The position numbers and the translations under genes are program-made. Under the pieces are notes generated by a model. That model searched no databases. It saw nothing but the letters and a program-made list of their open reading frames with translations, and was not told the DNA's origin. Of a stretch of 32,440 nucleotides of DNA, positions 3,109 to 12,017 are shown piece after piece. The stretch comes from Comamonadaceae bacterium (lineage in GTDB: Bacteria; Pseudomonadota; Gammaproteobacteria; Burkholderiales; Burkholderiaceae_C). Location: assembly GCA_947449895.1 (NCBI GenBank), contig CANFSO010000013.1:1-32440 (forward strand). Reading direction: 5' to 3'. Numbering within the stretch: the stretch's first letter is position 1; the number at the start of each line of letters is the position of its first letter.

Positions 3109-3184
3109 GGGACGTTAGCTCAGTTGGTAGAGCAGCGGACTTTTAATCCGTTTGTCGTGGGTTCGACCCCCGCACGTCCCACCA
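3109..3184 (+). tRNA. tRNA-Lys (anticodon TTT)
   Basis: GGGACGTTAGCTCAGTTGGTAGAGCAGCGGACTTTTAATCCGTTTGTCGTGGGTTCGACCCCCGCACGTCCCACCA; full cloverleaf, anticodon loop CTTTTAA, encoded CCA. Confidence 0.97.
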
Positions 3185-3436: not shown

Positions 3437-4198
3437 TCAGGGCGTAAAAAGCCGCGTTGCCAAGGTTGTTCTAGCTCTCTGCAATGCCGGCAGAAAAGCC
3501 TCCCGAAACTCGACCATGGTCATGCGCTCGGCTCTGACCGCAATGCTCATAGCGCCGACGGCAGTGCCTGCGCGATCAAATACCGGCACCGCCATTGAGC
3601 GCACACCAATCTCAAGCTCGCCATCGTTGGTGGCGTAGCCATCAACGCGACAGCGCTTGACTAGGCTCAACACCTGCGATGCATCAACCACCGTGCCGGT
3701 GGTGAGCTGCGGCCGCGCCATGCCATGTATCCGGCGTGCGGCTTCATCGGGTGCCATGCTCGCCAGCAACACGCGACCCATGGCAGAACAATAGACCGGC
3801 AGCCGCGAGCCAATGCCCAAGCCCGTGCTGAGGCTGCGCCGGGCGGTTGAGCGCGCGATGATGATGGCGTCGTCGTCAATCAAGGTTCCAAGGGACGCAG
3901 ATTCGCGTGTCCGCTCCGACAAAGCGTCCAGCAGCGGCTGAGCCAGCGAAGGGGTAGGGCGCGACGCCAAGTAGGCATGCGCCACCAGCAAGCAACGCGG
4001 CTGCATCCAGTAGTATTTGCCGTCACTGTCAAGGTAGCCCATGGTCTGGAGCGTGAGAAGTGAGCGCCGTGCAGAGGCTGGAGACGCGCCTGTCAAGCGG
4101 GCCACATCAGAGACTGTTAGCCGCCCATTCTGTCGCCCAAAACAGGTCAGAACCTCCAACCCTTTTTGCAAAGAAACGACAAAATTTTTATCTTGCAT
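3437..4198 (-). CDS. tphR: IclR-family transcriptional regulator, probable TphR (terephthalate operon activator)
   Basis: N-terminal wHTH 'SLQKGLEVLTCFGRQNGRLTVSDVARLTGASPASARRSLLTLQTMGYL', C-terminal IclR effector domain; divergent from tphC as in Comamonas tph operons. Confidence 0.85.
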   Translation of the reverse strand: MQDKNFVVSLQKGLEVLTCFGRQNGRLTVSDVARLTGASPASARRSLLTLQTMGYLDSDGKYYWMQPRCLLVAHAYLASRPTPSLAQPLLDALSERTRESASLGTLIDDDAIIIARSTARRSLSTGLGIGSRLPVYCSAMGRVLLASMAPDEAARRIHGMARPQLTTGTVVDASQVLSLVKRCRVDGYATNDGELEIGVRSMAVPVFDRAGTAVGAMSIAVRAERMTMVEFREAFLPALQRARTTLATRLFTP

Positions 4199-4317
4199 GC
4201 TTTGATCTTTGTCAACTAGTGGGTGTTATTTTTGCGCATCACGAAAATGTAGCTTGTTTTAAGGTGCGACAAATAACACACTGAAGGTCATCTAGAAGTG
4301 TTTAAGGAGACAACGAA
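4199..4317. promoter_or_regulatory. Divergent tphR/tphC intergenic control region with inverted repeat
   Basis: Only intergenic DNA between divergent regulator and operon; arms GTGTTATTT (4223-4231) and AAATAACAC (4271-4279) form a perfect 9-bp inverted repeat. Confidence 0.6.
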
Positions 4318-5289
4318 ATGAAGACATCTGTCACACGTCGCAGCAGTCTGACGCTGCTCGCCAGCCTCTGTTTGGGCAGCCAGGCTATCGCCCAGCAACC
4401 CACCAAACCGATCAAACTCATTGTTCCTTTTCCCGCCGGTGGAACGGCCGACATTCTGCCGCGCATCTTGGCCGACAAAATGCGCGCGGCATACCCTGCA
4501 GGTATCGTGGTGGACAACCGAACAGGTGCGGGCGGGAACATTGGGGCCGATATTGTTTTCCGTGCTGACCCGGATGGCGCAACGTTTCTGGTCTCGCCGC
4601 CGGGTCCGATTGCCATCAATCACAACCTGTACAGCAAGTTGTCTTTTGACCCGACGCGCTGGACACCCATCACGGTGATTGCAACCGTTCCCAATGTTCT
4701 GGCTGTGAGCAACAAACTGCCGGCGCAGAACTTGCAGGAGTTCATCGCTTACCTGAAGGCCAACCCCGGTAAGGTCAGTTACGCCTCGCAAGGCAATGGG
4801 TCAACTTCACACCTGACCGCCTGCCTGTTCATGCAGCTGACGGGAACCAGCATGACGCACATCCCCTACAAGGGAACCGCACCAGCTTTAGTCGACATCA
4901 TCGGCGGTCAAGTAGATGTTTTTTTTGACAACCTGAGCTCGTCGATGCCTTACCACCACGCTGGCAAGCTACGCATCCTTGCGGTGGCCGACGAGAATCG
5001 GTCACCCGCCTTGGCGTTAGTCCCGACATTTGTCGAATCGAAACTCCCGGCCATGATTGCGGTGACTTGGTTCGCTATCGTGGCCCCGCCCAACACCCCG
5101 GCGGCATTCACAGGGGCCCTGCAAAAGGCCGCTGCAGACGCATTGGCTCTGCCAGACGTGCGGCAGAAATTTTCTGAGCAAGGTGCGGAGCCACGCGGTT
5201 GGTCTCCAGAGCAGACCGGGCGCTTTATTCGCGCCGAAACTGAAAAATGGAACAAGGTCATTAAAACGGCTAACGTGAAATTGGAGTGA
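4318..5289 (+). CDS. tphC: Tripartite tricarboxylate transporter (TctC/BUG-type) substrate-binding protein, probable terephthalate binding protein TphC
   Basis: Signal peptide + '[26 protein letters not shown]...[23 protein letters not shown]' BUG-family signature; position immediately upstream of tphA2. Confidence 0.87.
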
Positions 5290-5294
5290 GTGAG

Positions 5295-6527
5295 ATGCAC
5301 GAACAAACCATCCACTGGAAAACCCCTGCGCTGACGCGGATCCCCTTCGGGCTTTACACAGACCGCGATTTACCGGCCGAAGAACAAAGGCGCATCTTCA
5401 GGGGCAATGTCTGGAACTTTCTTTGCCTTGAAGTTGAACTGCCTGAGCCGGGCAGCTACCGCACCACCTTTGCGGGGGAAACTCCGGTGGTGGTTGTACG
5501 CGACGTCGACGATGAAATCTACGCCTTTGAAAATCGTTGCGCCCATCGAGGTGCGCTGATCGCGCTTGAAAAATCGGGCAAAGCCGAGAACTTCCAATGC
5601 GTTTACCACGCTTGGAGTTACAACCGCCAGGGCGACCTGACCGGTGTTGCGTTTGAAAAAGGTGTCAAAGGGCAGGGCGGTATGACCGCAGATTTTTGCA
5701 AAGAAGATCATGGTCCGCGTAAGCTGCGAATTGCCACCTTCAGTGGCCTGGTGTTTGGGAGTTTTTCGGACGATGTGCCTAGCATCGAGGATTACCTAGG
5801 TGACGAGATCTGCCAGCGCATTGAGCGCGTGATGCACAAACCGGTGGAGGTCATCGGACGTTTCACCCAGTCATTGCCTAACAACTGGAAGCTCTACATG
5901 GAGAACGTCAAGGACAGCTATCACGCCAGTTTGCTGCACATGTTCTTCACCACTTTCCAATTGAACCGGCTGTCGCAAAAGGGCGGCGTGATCGTCGACG
6001 AGTCCGGTGGCCACCATGTAAGCTTCTCCATGATCGACACTACTGCGGAAAAAGATTCCTCCTACAAAGAGCAAGCCTTGCGCTCGGACAATGACCAGTA
6101 TCGGCTCAAAGATCCCAGCCTGCTGGCGGGCTTCACCGAGTACGACGACGGCGTCACGCTGCAGATTTTGTCGGTGTTCCCGGGCTTTGTTTTGCAGCAG
6201 ATCCAGAACTGTCTGGCGGTGCGTCAGATTTTGCCCAAAGACGTCGACCGCACCGAGTTGAACTGGACATACTTTGGCTACAAAGATGACACCCCAGCGC
6301 AGCGAAAGGTGCGCCTGAAGCAGTCCAACTTGGTCGGACCGGCAGGCTTTATATCGATGGAAGATGGTGCCGTCGGTGGCTTCGTGCAGCGCGGCATCGC
6401 GGGCGCTAGCGACAAAGAAGCGGTGGTTGAGATGGGCGGTGACCACGCCGAATCAAGTGAAGGTCGCGCCACAGAAACATCGGTGCGCGGCTTCTGGAAA
6501 GCCTACCGCCACCACATGGGTGCCTGA
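5295..6527 (+). CDS. tphA2: Terephthalate 1,2-dioxygenase, terminal oxygenase large (alpha) subunit
   Basis: Rieske motif '[28 protein letters not shown]'; mononuclear Fe region '[23 protein letters not shown]'; very close to recalled TphA2 of Comamonas ('[18 protein letters not shown]', '[20 protein letters not shown]', '[19 protein letters not shown]'). ORF track start 5286 is GTG; ATG at 5295. Confidence 0.93.
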
Positions 6528-6551
6528 GGCGCTCTAATGCAGGAAACCCCC

Positions 6552-7016
6552 ATGATTGACTTGCTGGCGCTGTGCGCCTTCAACGCGGCCTACGCCCACA
6601 CCATCGACAGCGACGCGCTGGAGCAATGGCCGGCCTTCTTTACACCGGACTGCCACTACCGGATCACCCACGTTGAAAATGAACAAGAAGGCTTGGCCGC
6701 AGGCATCGTGTATGCCGATTCGCGTGCCATGCTGGAGGACCGAATCGCCGCCCTGCGAGAAGCCAACATCTACGAACGCCAGCGCTACCGGCACATTCTG
6801 GGCATACCATTACTGACGCCCTCAGAAGCTGGGTCTGCGCACGCACGCACGCCCTTTCTGGTGGTTCGCATCATGGCCACCGGCCAGTCTGAGGTCTTCG
6901 CCAGCGGCGAGTACCGCGACCACTTCGTCCAGCAAGATGGCCAGCTTCTGCTGGCTGAGCGGGTGGCGATCTGCGACAGCACCGTCACCGACACCCTGAT
7001 GGCCTTACCGCTGTGA
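6552..7016 (+). CDS. tphA3: Terephthalate 1,2-dioxygenase, small (beta) subunit
   Basis: '[76 protein letters not shown]...[14 protein letters not shown]', ring-hydroxylating beta-subunit fold, close to recalled TphA3; ORF track start 6537, likely start 6552 preceded by AGGAAA. Confidence 0.91.
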
Positions 7017-7990
7017 CACCGTCGGTACAACGTCTTGCGCTGGCGCTAGGAGATCCCAACGGGATAGGCCCAGAGATCGCTTTAAAGGCGCTGCAGGCAC
7101 TCGACGCTGAAGCACGTGGACGCATCACGGTCTTCGGTCCGTCCGCCGTTCTGGAGCGTGCTGCTGCCGTGACGGGCCTGCGGGCGCTGTTGCCACAGCT
7201 GACACTGGTGGAAGCTGGAACGCTGCCCGACAGCGCAGCTCAGCCGGGTCGGATTGATCCGGTCGCAGGTGCCTCTGCGGTTGCATCGGCAACCGCCGCC
7301 ATCAACGCCTGTCGGGGGGGCCAATTCGATGCCGTGATCGCCTGCCCGCACCATGAAACCGCCATCCATCAGGCCGGCATCGCGTTCAGTGGCTACCCGT
7401 CTTTGGTGGCTCGCGTGTGCGGTGTGCCCGAAGACGAGGTCTTCATGCTGCTGGTCGGCGGCGGTCTGCGCATCGTTCATGTCACGCTGCACGAAAGCGT
7501 GCGAACCGCTCTAGACCGGTTGACGCCTGACCTGGTGCAACGGGCGGTGCGAGCCGGCGCACGCGCCTGCGCTTTCCTCGGGGTAAGCAACCCGTCCATC
7601 GGTGTTTTTGGCATCAACCCACATGCCTCTGAAGGAACGCTGTTTGGCCCCGAGGACGCCAACATTGTCTTACCCGCAGTGGCGCAGTTGCGTGCTGAGG
7701 GTTACCGCATGGACGGCCCCCAAGGCGCCGACGTGTTGCTGGCGCAGCGCCGCCACGACCTGTACGTGGCGATGCTGCACGACCAAGGCCACATCCCCAT
7801 CAAACTGCTGGCCCCCCACGCGGCCAGTGCCTTGAGCATTGGTGCGGACGCATTGTTATCGAGCGTTGGACATGGCAGCGCCATGGACATCGCGGGGCGG
7901 GGCGTTGCCGACCCAACGGCCCTGCTGCGAACCATCGCCTTGTTGTCGGGTGTTCAAACGCAAACGGCCGAAAAGTACCTGTCGGCATGA
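7013..7990 (+). CDS. tphB: 1,2-dihydroxy-3,5-cyclohexadiene-1,4-dicarboxylate dehydrogenase (PdxA family), TphB
   Basis: PdxA-family '[20 protein letters not shown]...[27 protein letters not shown]...[16 protein letters not shown]'; located between tphA3 and tphA1; overlaps tphA3 stop (GTGA). Confidence 0.88.
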
Positions 7991-9003
7991 CCCATCGCAT
8001 TGCCATAGAGAACAGCGACATCGCTTTCGACTGCGACTCAGGCCAGAGTGTTCTGGACGCCGCATTGCACGCGGGGATTGAACTTCCCTACTCTTGCCGC
8101 AAAGGTGTTTGCGGCAGTTGTGCTGGTAGCATTACCGTCGGCGAGGTCTCGGGCGTCAACGCTGGCGCGGTTCGCAACGACACATGTTCAGCCGACCAAG
8201 TGCTGTACTGCCTGTGTGCGCCGACCAGCGATCTCGTGCTCAAGCCCTTGTCGTGGAAGCGGCTTGATCCCTCTGCACGCAAAACGTTCACCGCCAAGGT
8301 TTACAGCAATGAACTGGCCGCACCCGATATCTCCCTTCTGCGGCTGCGGCTGCCAACCGGCCAGCGTGCCAAGTTCCAGGCGGGTCAATACCTTCAGGTT
8401 CTGCTAGACGATGGTAGTAAACGGAGCTATTCCATGGCTAATCCGCCGCAAGAAAGCGATGGCGTCACGCTTCACATTCGCCATGTGCCGGGCGGACGAT
8501 TCAGCGCGCAGGTGACCCAGCTCAGGCCCGGCGACACGCTGCAAATTGAGTTGCCTTTTGGCCATGTGACGCTGCTTGAGGATGACTCGCGCCCGATTGT
8601 TTTCGTTGCCGGCGGTACTGGTTTTGCGCCGGTGAAGTCGATCCTCGACGATATGCTCAAACGCCGTGTCAAACGCCCCATGACATTGATCTGGGGCGCA
8701 CGCGAGGCGCAAGGTCTGTACTTGCCCGCAGCCGTGGAGCGCTGGCAAAAACAGTGGTCTGATTTCCGTTTTATTAAAGCGCTCAGCGACGTTCCAACGG
8801 AATCCATGGATGACGCTTACGCCGGTCGTGTCGACCAGGCTTTACGAGCGCATTGCCCAGATCTGACTGAGCACGTCGTTTATTGTTGCGGTTCACCGCC
8901 GATGGCGGCAGCTGTACGCAGCGCCGCCCATAACTGTGGTTTAGCATCAAGCGATTTTCACGCTGATGTTTTTGTACCCGGGCCTGCAGCGGTACAGCCT
9001 TGA
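7987..9003 (+). CDS. tphA1: Terephthalate 1,2-dioxygenase reductase component (2Fe-2S ferredoxin + FAD/NAD domains)
   Basis: Plant-type ferredoxin '[15 protein letters not shown]...LYCLC', FAD 'RSYSMANPP', NAD '[15 protein letters not shown]', 'VYCCGSPPM'; ATGA overlap with tphB. Confidence 0.92.
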
Positions 9004-9038: not shown

Positions 9039-10784
9039 ATGACCCTCGATAACCGCGCAACCGTGGCCGCTGTCACGACGGCACGTCGTCTACTTGAAGA
9101 AGCCGCTCGCTTGGGTGTGGACTACATCTTCACCAATTTGGGTAGCGACCACCCGGCCTTTATCGAAGCCTTTGCCCAGATTGAGATGCAGGGCGGAAAG
9201 ATGCCGCAAATCATCGTCTGCCCGCATGAGATGACCGCACTCAGTGCCGCGCACGGCTATGCCATGCGCACACGCCGGCCGCAGATGGTGCTTGTGCATG
9301 TGGACGTCGGCACACAGAACTTGGGCTGCAGCATTCACAACGCAGCGCGCGGTCGTGTTCCTGCCATCATTGTTGCCGGACTGTCCCCGGTGTCCGTCAG
9401 CGGTGAAAGAACCGGCGCTCGCACTGAGTTCATCCACTACACGCAGGACACATCGCGCCAGCACGAAATTGGGGGCCAGTACATGAAGTGGTCCTATGAA
9501 GTGCGGGCTGCGGAGATGATTGACCAAGTGCTGATGCGCGGCATGCAGTTGGCGTGCACCGTGCCTGAAGGTCCGGTCTACCTGACGGGGGCACGTGAAG
9601 TCTGGGACGAACCCGCCGTCTCGCCGCAGCAACCAGCGCTGCACTGGCAACCGGCCCAGATGGCCGGCCTGACACCCACTGCTGCGCGTGAATTGCTGAG
9701 CGCACTGGCCGCAGCGCGCAAGCCCTTGGTCATCACGAGCTACTTGGGCCGGCAGCCTGAAGCGGTAGAGCGCTTGGCAGCACTCTCGCTGCAACTGGGC
9801 TTGGCGGTGTGTGAGGTCAACCCGCAATACGTTAACTTTCCGGGCGACCACCCAAACCACATTGGCTATCGCCGCAACACGCTGGTAGACGAAGCTGACC
9901 TGATTTTGATGCTTGATGTGGATGTACCTTGGATCGTGTCACGCGTTAAACCGCGTGCCGATGCTCGGTTGTTCCACTTGGATTGCGACCCATTGAAGCC
10001 GGACCTGGGCTTCTGGCATTTCCCAGCAGAGCAGACTTGGCAGGCCGACAGCTTGGTAGCGCTCGAGCAGCTGCTGGATTTGGCGAAAACAGACATCAAT
10101 GACGATGCGCTGCACTCGGAACGAAGCGACTGGATAGCTGGCGCACGCCAACATCTAGCCTTACCCAATATGCCCGTGCCTGCGGACGGGAGCATCAGCC
10201 TACAACAAGCCTGCGAGGCCATCGCAGCGCTCGTCACCGAGAAGACGGTCATCGTCTTCGAGGAGCCAGCGGCGACTGAACGCCTGCTACACACACTGCG
10301 CATGCGACGCCCCGGCAGTTACTACGCTAACGGCGGTAGCGGACTAGGTTGGAGCATCAATGCGGCCATCGGTGTGAAACTGGCGCAGCCCAATGCGGAG
10401 GTCATCACCGTGGTTGGCGACGGCAGCTATGTGTTTGGTGTGCCCACCAGCACCTACTGGGTTGCGGAGACTTATAAGGCCCCTCAGCTGACCATCATCT
10501 TTAACAACGGCGGTTGGAATGCGCCCAAGGTCTCAACCCTGCTAGTCCACCCTGAAGGGACTGCCAAGCGTCAAGATCGTTTCTGGACGACCGTTGGCGC
10601 ACGCGCCCGTTTGGCAGATGTGGCTGCAGCCGCTGGAGGTGCTGCAGCCTTTCGGGTGAGTGAGTACGCCCAGCTCCAAACCACGCTGGAACAAGCTATG
10701 GCGATCGTCCGCGGCGGTCGCAGCGCCGTGGTCGACGTGGTGCTACCGAGCACCGCTACCCAAGTGCTGGGTCCTACGGCGTGA
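9039..10784 (+). CDS. Thiamine diphosphate-dependent enzyme, acetolactate synthase/benzoylformate decarboxylase-like, substrate unknown
   Basis: Catalytic Glu context 'CPHEMTALSAAHGYA' and ThDP/Mg motif 'VVGDGSYVFGVPTSTYWVAETYKAPQLTIIFNNGGWNAPK'; SD AGGAG upstream of ATG 9039; ORF track start 9000 is a non-ATG extension. Confidence 0.85.
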   Translation: MTLDNRATVAAVTTARRLLEEAARLGVDYIFTNLGSDHPAFIEAFAQIEMQGGKMPQIIVCPHEMTALSAAHGYAMRTRRPQMVLVHVDVGTQNLGCSIHNAARGRVPAIIVAGLSPVSVSGERTGARTEFIHYTQDTSRQHEIGGQYMKWSYEVRAAEMIDQVLMRGMQLACTVPEGPVYLTGAREVWDEPAVSPQQPALHWQPAQMAGLTPTAARELLSALAAARKPLVITSYLGRQPEAVERLAALSLQLGLAVCEVNPQYVNFPGDHPNHIGYRRNTLVDEADLILMLDVDVPWIVSRVKPRADARLFHLDCDPLKPDLGFWHFPAEQTWQADSLVALEQLLDLAKTDINDDALHSERSDWIAGARQHLALPNMPVPADGSISLQQACEAIAALVTEKTVIVFEEPAATERLLHTLRMRRPGSYYANGGSGLGWSINAAIGVKLAQPNAEVITVVGDGSYVFGVPTSTYWVAETYKAPQLTIIFNNGGWNAPKVSTLLVHPEGTAKRQDRFWTTVGARARLADVAAAAGGAAAFRVSEYAQLQTTLEQAMAIVRGGRSAVVDVVLPSTATQVLGPTA

Positions 10785-10840: not shown

Positions 10841-11827
10841 ATGACCACTAGACGCATTCTTTTCATCGCCCTGTTGTTCAGTGCCAGCGCAAGCTCTTTG
10901 CCGGCGTTAGCGCAGACAGACAGCGTGGCGAATTATCCGAGTAAGCCGATCCGCATCATCGTTAACTTCCCGCCCGGTGGGACGGTGGACACGCTGAGCC
11001 GCGTCGTGGGTCAGAAACTCGCGGAAAAGTGGGGGCAAGCCGTGGTTATCGAAAATCGCACAGGTGCTGGGGGCAACATCGGCGCTCAAGCCGTGGCCGT
11101 CGCGGACCCCGATGGTTACACTTTACTGGCAACACCTCCCGGCCCGATGACGATCAACCAGAATTTGTACAAGGACATGCGCTTTGAACCCGAGAAGCTA
11201 GTCCCGATCATCATGCTGGCAAGCGTTCCTAATGTCATCACGGCGCGTGTAGACTTTCCAGCCGCTTCTGTCAAAGAGTTGATTGCCTATGTCAAAGCTA
11301 ACCCCGGCAAGGTGACTTATGCATCGCAAGGCAATGGGTCAACTTCGCACCTCACGGGTCAAATGTTTGCCAGTATGACCGGCACAAATATGCTGCACGT
11401 ACCGTTTAAAGGTGAAGGCCCGGCGCTGAATGAATTACTCGGCGGCCGCGTCGATTTGTTCATGGGCAATATTTCCGCAGTTCTCAAGTTCCAACAAGAC
11501 CAGCGCGTTAAATTTCTGGCTTTGGCCGCACCACGCCGTGGATCTATGGCACCCGGCGTTCCGACCGCAGCCGAAAGCGGTTTGCCAGACTTCGTTGCTT
11601 CCGCCTGGTTTGCGATGGCAGCACCCCCCGGCACGCCTACTGCGGTTGCGCGCAAGCTGAACGCAGCTATCGCTGAGATTCTGAAAATGTCCGATGTGCA
11701 GCAAAAATTTGTGGCGCAGGGCGCAGAGGTAGTGGGCGGATCACCAGCAGAAATGACGACCTTCATGGATACTGAGCGCGTGCGTTGGAAAAAAGTGATC
11801 GACACGGCAAATGTCAGGATTGACTAA
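10841..11827 (+). CDS. Second tripartite tricarboxylate transporter (TctC/BUG-type) substrate-binding protein
   Basis: Signal peptide + '[62 protein letters not shown]'; paralogous to the protein at 4318-5289. Confidence 0.88.
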   Translation: MTTRRILFIALLFSASASSLPALAQTDSVANYPSKPIRIIVNFPPGGTVDTLSRVVGQKLAEKWGQAVVIENRTGAGGNIGAQAVAVADPDGYTLLATPPGPMTINQNLYKDMRFEPEKLVPIIMLASVPNVITARVDFPAASVKELIAYVKANPGKVTYASQGNGSTSHLTGQMFASMTGTNMLHVPFKGEGPALNELLGGRVDLFMGNISAVLKFQQDQRVKFLALAAPRRGSMAPGVPTAAESGLPDFVASAWFAMAAPPGTPTAVARKLNAAIAEILKMSDVQQKFVAQGAEVVGGSPAEMTTFMDTERVRWKKVIDTANVRID

Positions 11828-11886: not shown

Positions 11887-11919
11887 AAGCCCTTATAAAT
11901 CAAAGACTTATAAGGGCTT
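11887..11919 (-). terminator. Rho-independent terminator downstream of tRNA-Ser (minus), possibly bidirectional and also ending the tph operon
   Basis: Perfect 12-bp inverted repeat AAGCCCTTATAA-N9-TTATAAGGGCTT; T-run in minus orientation (plus-strand A-run at 11884-11888). Confidence 0.8.
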
Positions 11920-11927
11920 AAATACTC

Positions 11928-12017
11928 TGGCGGAAGAGGCGGGATTCGAACCCGCGGTGGGTATAACCCCACGTACGCTTTCCAGGCGTATGACTTAAAC
12001 CGCTCATCCACCCTTCC
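11928..12017 (-). tRNA. tRNA-Ser (anticodon GGA)
   Basis: Reverse complement GGAAGGGTGGATGAGCGGTTTAAGTCATACGCCTGGAAAGCGTACGTGGGGTTATACCCACCGCGGGTTCGAATCCCGCCTCTTCCGCCA; long variable arm, GGA anticodon, encoded CCA. Confidence 0.96.

Follow-up and report, generated by a model that had tools for sequence, protein, structure and literature searches.

The window analyzed here is a 32,440-nt stretch of DNA (contig C13) from a Polaromonas-like Comamonadaceae draft genome (host genome G000), the assembly of which comprises 2.7 Mb in 209 contigs and is 78.5% complete. At 3437 to 9003, the list of open reading frames (ORFs) of the window contains six intact ORFs in the order tphR<>tphC-tphA2-tphA3-tphB-tphA1, in which adjacent catabolic ORFs nearly abut or overlap. 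The Pfam-type domains of the encoded proteins (IclR, TctC, PdxA, and Fer2/FAD/NAD) and matches to solved structures agree with this order, including the divergent IclR gene that comes first, as had been proposed in a first-pass annotation of the sequence. Most of the Burkholderiales loci that we found have these six genes in the same order, and tphR is usually divergent there. Based on the evidence described below, we consider it very likely that the cluster is an operon of the Comamonas tph type for the catabolism of terephthalate (TPA), a building block of polyethylene terephthalate (PET) plastic.

Core genes of the tph cluster

Based on homology, residues, and tree position, tphA2 (5286 to 6527, plus strand, with an ATG option at 5295) is predicted to encode the alpha subunit of a terephthalate 1,2-dioxygenase, and tphA3 (6537 to 7016, plus strand, with an ATG option at 6552) the beta subunit. 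In a structure-database search, TphA2 matched the solved terephthalate dioxygenase 7vju/7q04 with E=4e-232, and TphA3 matched the beta subunit of 7q04 with E=8e-69. TphA2 is 80.1% identical to 7vju, the crystallized Comamonas terephthalate dioxygenase (TPADO), so that the earlier description of TphA2 and TphA3 as near-identical to the Comamonas proteins was too strong. In TPADO, H210, H215, and D356 are the iron ligands, while R309, I290, S243, N224, and R390 contact the substrate; among characterized relatives, N224, S243, and R390 are restricted to TPADO and have been proposed as its recognition motif (PMC9060491). All three iron ligands are kept in window TphA2 (as H213, H218, and D360), as are all the substrate residues (N227, S246, I294, R313, and R394, abbreviated NSIRR). 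In this comparison, in which the mis-extracted ORFs of rows L034 and L035 were given no weight, two further host alpha subunits that are close matches (47% and 39% identical to window TphA2) have SFIRK and WMMRM, respectively, instead of NSIRR.

In a maximum likelihood tree of alpha subunits, window TphA2 pairs with that of Polaromonas sp. AER18D-145 and that of the close relative L001, to which it is 96% identical. Together with Comamonas TphA2, it lies in a starred clade, with the protein of Ideonella (Piscinibacter) sakaiensis 201-F6 (L018) in a larger clade; TpaAa of Rhodococcus jostii RHA1 joins outside the I. sakaiensis-containing clade, in a larger group that is itself within a starred clade. 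The two other alpha subunits of the host fall apart from window TphA2. Some intermediate supports in this tree are weak (86/66), and the long paralogue branches are placed with uncertainty. Still, the tree unites window TphA2 with the enzymes of Comamonas, I. sakaiensis, and RHA1 and does not place it in a clade of another aromatic-acid dioxygenase.

Several other alpha subunits were noted during this survey. The 47% identical host protein with SFIRK is encoded on contig C139 (L042), directly after LigB- and LigA-type dioxygenase genes (4359 to 6876 for the group), which is an unusual pairing; in a comparison with PDB entries, this LigB protein was nearer to gallate dioxygenase than to LigB. 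The 39% identical protein with WMMRM belongs to a third Rieske alpha/beta pair on contig C88 (L043, 8466 to 10240), which is possibly a salicylate- or anthranilate-type enzyme. Two alpha subunits from other genomes (L078 in G048 and L079 in G033) are 45-50% identical to TphA2 and have all five NSIRR residues, making them possible divergent terephthalate-type dioxygenases.

tphC (4318 to 5289, plus strand) is predicted from homology and pocket residues to encode the TPA-binding protein of a tripartite tricarboxylate transporter. The protein matched the terephthalate binding protein in PDB entry 8hka with E=5e-148 and is 66% identical to TphC of Comamonas strain E6 (7ndr). The residues used to recognize TphC, i.e., P86, Q150, T155, and T242 (PMC8556258), are all kept in the window protein. 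The host genome contains four TctA genes, all of which are outside the tph operon; the membrane transporter partners also lie outside the operon in Comamonas. tphB (7013 to 7990, plus strand) would encode a PdxA-type dehydrogenase/decarboxylase for 1,2-dihydroxy-3,5-cyclohexadiene-1,4-dicarboxylate (DCD). Among solved proteins, TphB is most similar to TPA dihydrodiol dehydrogenases, matching 8zj3/8zhy with E=4e-128 and 4aty, a "terephthalate 1,2-cis-dihydrodiol dehydrogenase", with E=1e-81. tphA1 (7987 to 9003, plus strand) is predicted to encode an NADH/FAD/2Fe-2S reductase with Fer2, FAD_binding_6, and NAD_binding_1 domains.

tphR (3437 to 4198, minus strand; PF09339 and PF01614) encodes an IclR-family regulator of the PcaR/PcaU/PobR subgroup. 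Its best NCBIfam model is TIGR02431, with a score of 266 bits that is under the cut-off of 284.75. The tphR-tphC intergenic region contains an imperfect palindrome, TTTTGCGCATCACGAAAA, at 4230 to 4247, which is kept in most of the aligned intergenic regions reaching that far. In the same region, three relatives have a cleaner palindrome of the TTTGCGCATAGCGCAAA or TTGCGC-N3-GCGCAA type, and the relatives have in common TTTTGCGCAT..CG.AAA followed by TAGCTTGTT. From this alignment, we infer that the conserved palindrome is a candidate TphR site and that it marks a candidate operator/promoter region.

Gene content, gene order, the divergent regulator, and the TphC pocket residues are the same in the window and in the Comamonas tph operon. 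I. sakaiensis 201-F6 has the same six genes, with TphA2, TphA3, and TphC being 81%, 81%, and 68% identical, respectively, to the window proteins. Its operon includes a hydrolase gene (PMC8556258), whereas the window tph cluster has none; a genome-wide search for a PETase or MHETase was not made. The tpa genes on pRHL2 of R. jostii RHA1 share the IclR regulator, alpha and beta subunits, PdxA-type protein, and reductase with the window (alpha subunits 68% identical), but this cluster has ABC and MFS transporter genes at its flanks in place of tphC.

Two genes downstream of tphA1

The first-pass annotation had the module end with tphA1 at 9003. While its six genes stand, two further ORFs on the same strand were missed, and the operon probably extends to 11827. 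The first of the two (9039 to 10784, plus strand, with a TTG option at 9000) is predicted to encode a thiamine pyrophosphate (TPP)-dependent decarboxylase/lyase of the PRK08327/NF006203 family (592 bits against a cut-off of 456). The second (10841 to 11827, plus strand) would encode another TphC-like TctC binding protein, the best solved match of which is a terephthalate binding protein (E=3e-96). The gaps between tphA1 and the TPP enzyme gene and between the latter and the second TctC gene are 35 and 56 nt, respectively, and a simple scan, which is weak evidence, gave no convincing promoter or terminator setting the two genes apart from tphA1. In the Comamonas tph operon, tphA1 is not followed by these two genes, and no TPP enzyme was matched in the I. 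sakaiensis operon or is present in the RHA1 tpa cluster.

The closest solved relatives of the TPP enzyme are benzoylformate decarboxylases, with approximately 26% identity across the part of the N-terminal region that was aligned. In the alignment, in which rows L137 and L169 were given no weight as mis-extracted ORFs, the enzyme aligns with S26, E47, and H70 of benzoylformate decarboxylase, while H281 falls outside the aligned stretch; a GDGS...NN TPP motif is present. With the benzoylformate decarboxylase model NF005485, the enzyme scores 151.7 against a cut-off of 493 and is, therefore, not filed as a member. The second TctC protein is 47% identical to TphC and has the pocket residues P86, Q150, T155, and A242 together with V36 and E179. 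The substitutions A36V and T179E alter positions whose backbone atoms contact the second carboxylate.

The TPP enzyme gene and the second TctC gene were found behind a tph cluster at only two other places, i.e., in L001 and in Schlegelella koreensis (L012)/G714, which probably represent a single genome and were taken as one place. In L022, the second TctC gene is present, but there is no match to the TPP enzyme. The PQTA set with V36 and E179 is also found in the second TctC homologues of L001, L012, and L022. TPP enzyme matches at E<=1e-120 occurred in 4 of the 401 sampled family genomes. The contexts of TPP enzyme homologues are mixed, with an aldehyde dehydrogenase gene adjacent (pBHB) or approximately 5 kb away (Novosphingobium), while others have dihydroxy-acid dehydratase, MFS, or uninformative neighbors. 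On plasmid pBHB of Comamonas sp. 7D-2 (L164, 7460 to 10707), an aldehyde dehydrogenase gene and the gene for a TPP enzyme that is 53% identical to that of the window are close to reductive dehalogenase and extradiol dioxygenase genes. This aromatic-acid cluster, for halogenated 4-hydroxybenzoate, also contains a TctC gene; it differs from the window cluster in having its own aldehyde dehydrogenase and in lacking a Rieske dioxygenase in the stretch read. The pBHB arrangement suggests a recurring role of the TPP enzyme family in aromatic-acid clusters. A literature search on this family gave nothing useful.

Genome setting and lower pathway

The cluster fills, with 8.7 kb, the gap between tRNA-Lys(ttt) (3109 to 3184, plus strand) and tRNA-Ser(gga) (11928 to 12017, minus strand). 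Most genus members that were read retain the left flank (YbgF, YeeE, TcdA, and tRNA-Lys), and the YbgF-TcdA-tRNA-Lys order, usually with a YeeE-like gene in between, is conserved in the genus. In the relative G024, the same tRNA-Lys is separated from the tRNA-Ser-Stom-NfeD-Ldc block by approximately 21 kb filled by other genes. The tph cluster, thus, sits in a variable interval bordered by the two tRNA genes, a setting that distinguishes it from the Comamonas tph operon. An assembly chimera is unlikely because both the left (YbgF, YeeE, and TcdA) and the right (Stom, NfeD, and Ldc) flanks are genus-like and, in G024, lie approximately 21 kb from each other on either side of these two tRNA genes. 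We did not see an integrase ORF between the tRNA genes in the window ORF list, nor did we find a flanking copy of a tRNA end or an attachment repeat at the interval; therefore, we rejected a tRNA-targeted integrative island and refer to a variable interval only. Between the second TctC gene and tRNA-Ser, a 15-bp hairpin at 11887 to 11919 precedes a minus-strand T-run and resembles a terminator for tRNA-Ser. Flanking ORFs, named from sequence as lysine-decarboxylase-like, FabI-like, NusA, IF-2, TruB, and TypA-like, bear out the housekeeping surroundings described previously.

A close TphA2 (E<=1e-180) was found in 25 of the 401 sampled family genomes (approximately 6%), while only 3 of the 37 genus genomes (G000, G004, and G006) have a TphA2 that is at least 80% identical. 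TphA2 of L002 is identical to that of G004, and TphA2 of L025 to that of G006; with G004 and G006 both listed in the host genus, this genus is very probably Polaromonas.

Protocatechuate (PCA) genes had been reported as absent from the window, and the genome search places them on other contigs. Contig C139 carries genes for a protocatechuate 4,5-dioxygenase alpha subunit (PRK13379, over cut-off) and a LigB-type beta subunit; C10 carries a LigK-type aldolase gene and a 4-oxalomesaconate (OMA) tautomerase gene, both over cut-off, with two amidohydrolase genes; and C31 carries genes for PcaG, PcaH, and PcaQ, all over cut-off. Because protocatechuate 4,5- and 3,4-dioxygenase genes occur elsewhere in the draft genome, full mineralization of TPA is plausible for this host.

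Proposed function and alternatives

In the pathway that we propose, TphC would catch TPA in the periplasm and deliver it to a membrane transporter of the TctAB type, whose genes lie outside the operon. TphA1 would relay electrons from NADH to the TphA2A3 Rieske oxygenase, which would convert TPA to DCD by cis-dihydroxylation, and TphB would convert DCD to PCA by oxidative decarboxylation. PCA would be cleaved by the products of genes on other contigs, using the 4,5-route (PmdAB followed by OMA tautomerase/hydratase and a LigK-type aldolase), with the 3,4-route (PcaGH) as an additional or alternative cleavage. TphR would respond to TPA and control expression from the tphR-tphC intergenic region, and the operon would continue into the TPP enzyme gene and the gene for the second TphC-like protein. 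The role of these two proteins, which may be the uptake and conversion of a related aromatic acid, is the least certain part of this explanation.

The TPADO-diagnostic residues, the TphC pocket, and the tree position all support the TPA operon interpretation of the first-pass annotation. Some points weigh against it. None of the four TctA genes is assigned to the operon, and other para-dicarboxylates are possible substrates, as TphC also binds several close TPA analogues (PMC8556258). Moreover, the TPP enzyme has no place in the published route from TPA to PCA and, therefore, the operon may handle more than TPA. A different aromatic acid, such as anthranilate, salicylate, hydroxypicolinate, or another mono-acid, would be the dioxygenase substrate if the likeness to tph were one of gene order only. 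The NCBIfam models nearest to the dioxygenase are indeed those of the anthranilate dioxygenase AndAc/AndAd, and the wider subfamily hydroxylates various aryl carboxylates (PMC9060491). However, the AndAc score is 471 against a cut-off of 750, N224, S243, and R390 are all present, TphA2 lies with TPA dioxygenases in the tree, and a TphC-type binding protein and a PdxA-type dehydrogenase are encoded in the same operon. Based on score, residues, and tree, we rejected an anthranilate/salicylate-type identity for TphA2A3 and consider a mono-acid substrate highly improbable.

The alternatives that concern the two downstream genes are less remote. If TPA were a mere intermediate, the true substrate could be either a para-dicarboxylate of natural origin or an aromatic 2-oxo acid with a para-carboxyl group, e.g., 4-carboxyphenylglyoxylate, the latter of which would be imported, decarboxylated by the TPP enzyme to 4-carboxybenzaldehyde, and oxidized to TPA. 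This would fit the likeness of the TPP enzyme to benzoylformate decarboxylase at S26, E47, and H70, the second binding protein, which retains most of the TPA pocket but has V36, E179, and A242, and the adjoining aldehyde dehydrogenase and TPP enzyme genes in the pBHB cluster. Yet the window cluster has no aldehyde dehydrogenase gene, most tph loci lack the two genes, and homologues of the TPP enzyme occur elsewhere in unrelated contexts. Also, to our knowledge, 4-carboxyphenylglyoxylate is not known as an environmental compound. Although no natural ligand is known for TphC (PMC8556258), we regard such an upstream function as unlikely. Somewhat more credible, but still doubtful, is that these two genes have no relation to tph and hitch-hiked as a pair, encoding a binding protein and a TPP enzyme that acts on another 2-oxo acid, and that their place behind tphA1 is fortuitous. 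Genes for TctC proteins are numerous in this order, and the distant TPP paralogue of the host on contig C2 likewise has TctC genes beside it. On the other hand, the pair recurs behind tph genes both in a close relative and in a separate lineage, and the binding protein of the pair shows its greatest similarity to terephthalate binding proteins.

The tph core is a well-supported, ordinary operon of a kind described before in many Burkholderiales; it adds an apparently complete TPA operon in a Polaromonas-like draft genome and a new homologue for enzyme work. No natural occurrence of TPA is known, and how its recognition arose is an open question (PMC8556258). The extension matters more than the core. 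Its conserved TPP enzyme and altered binding protein, attached to tph clusters, provide two specific leads to an upstream or alternative substrate. If the upstream function were true, it would suggest that tph operons had a source of TPA in nature before plastics.

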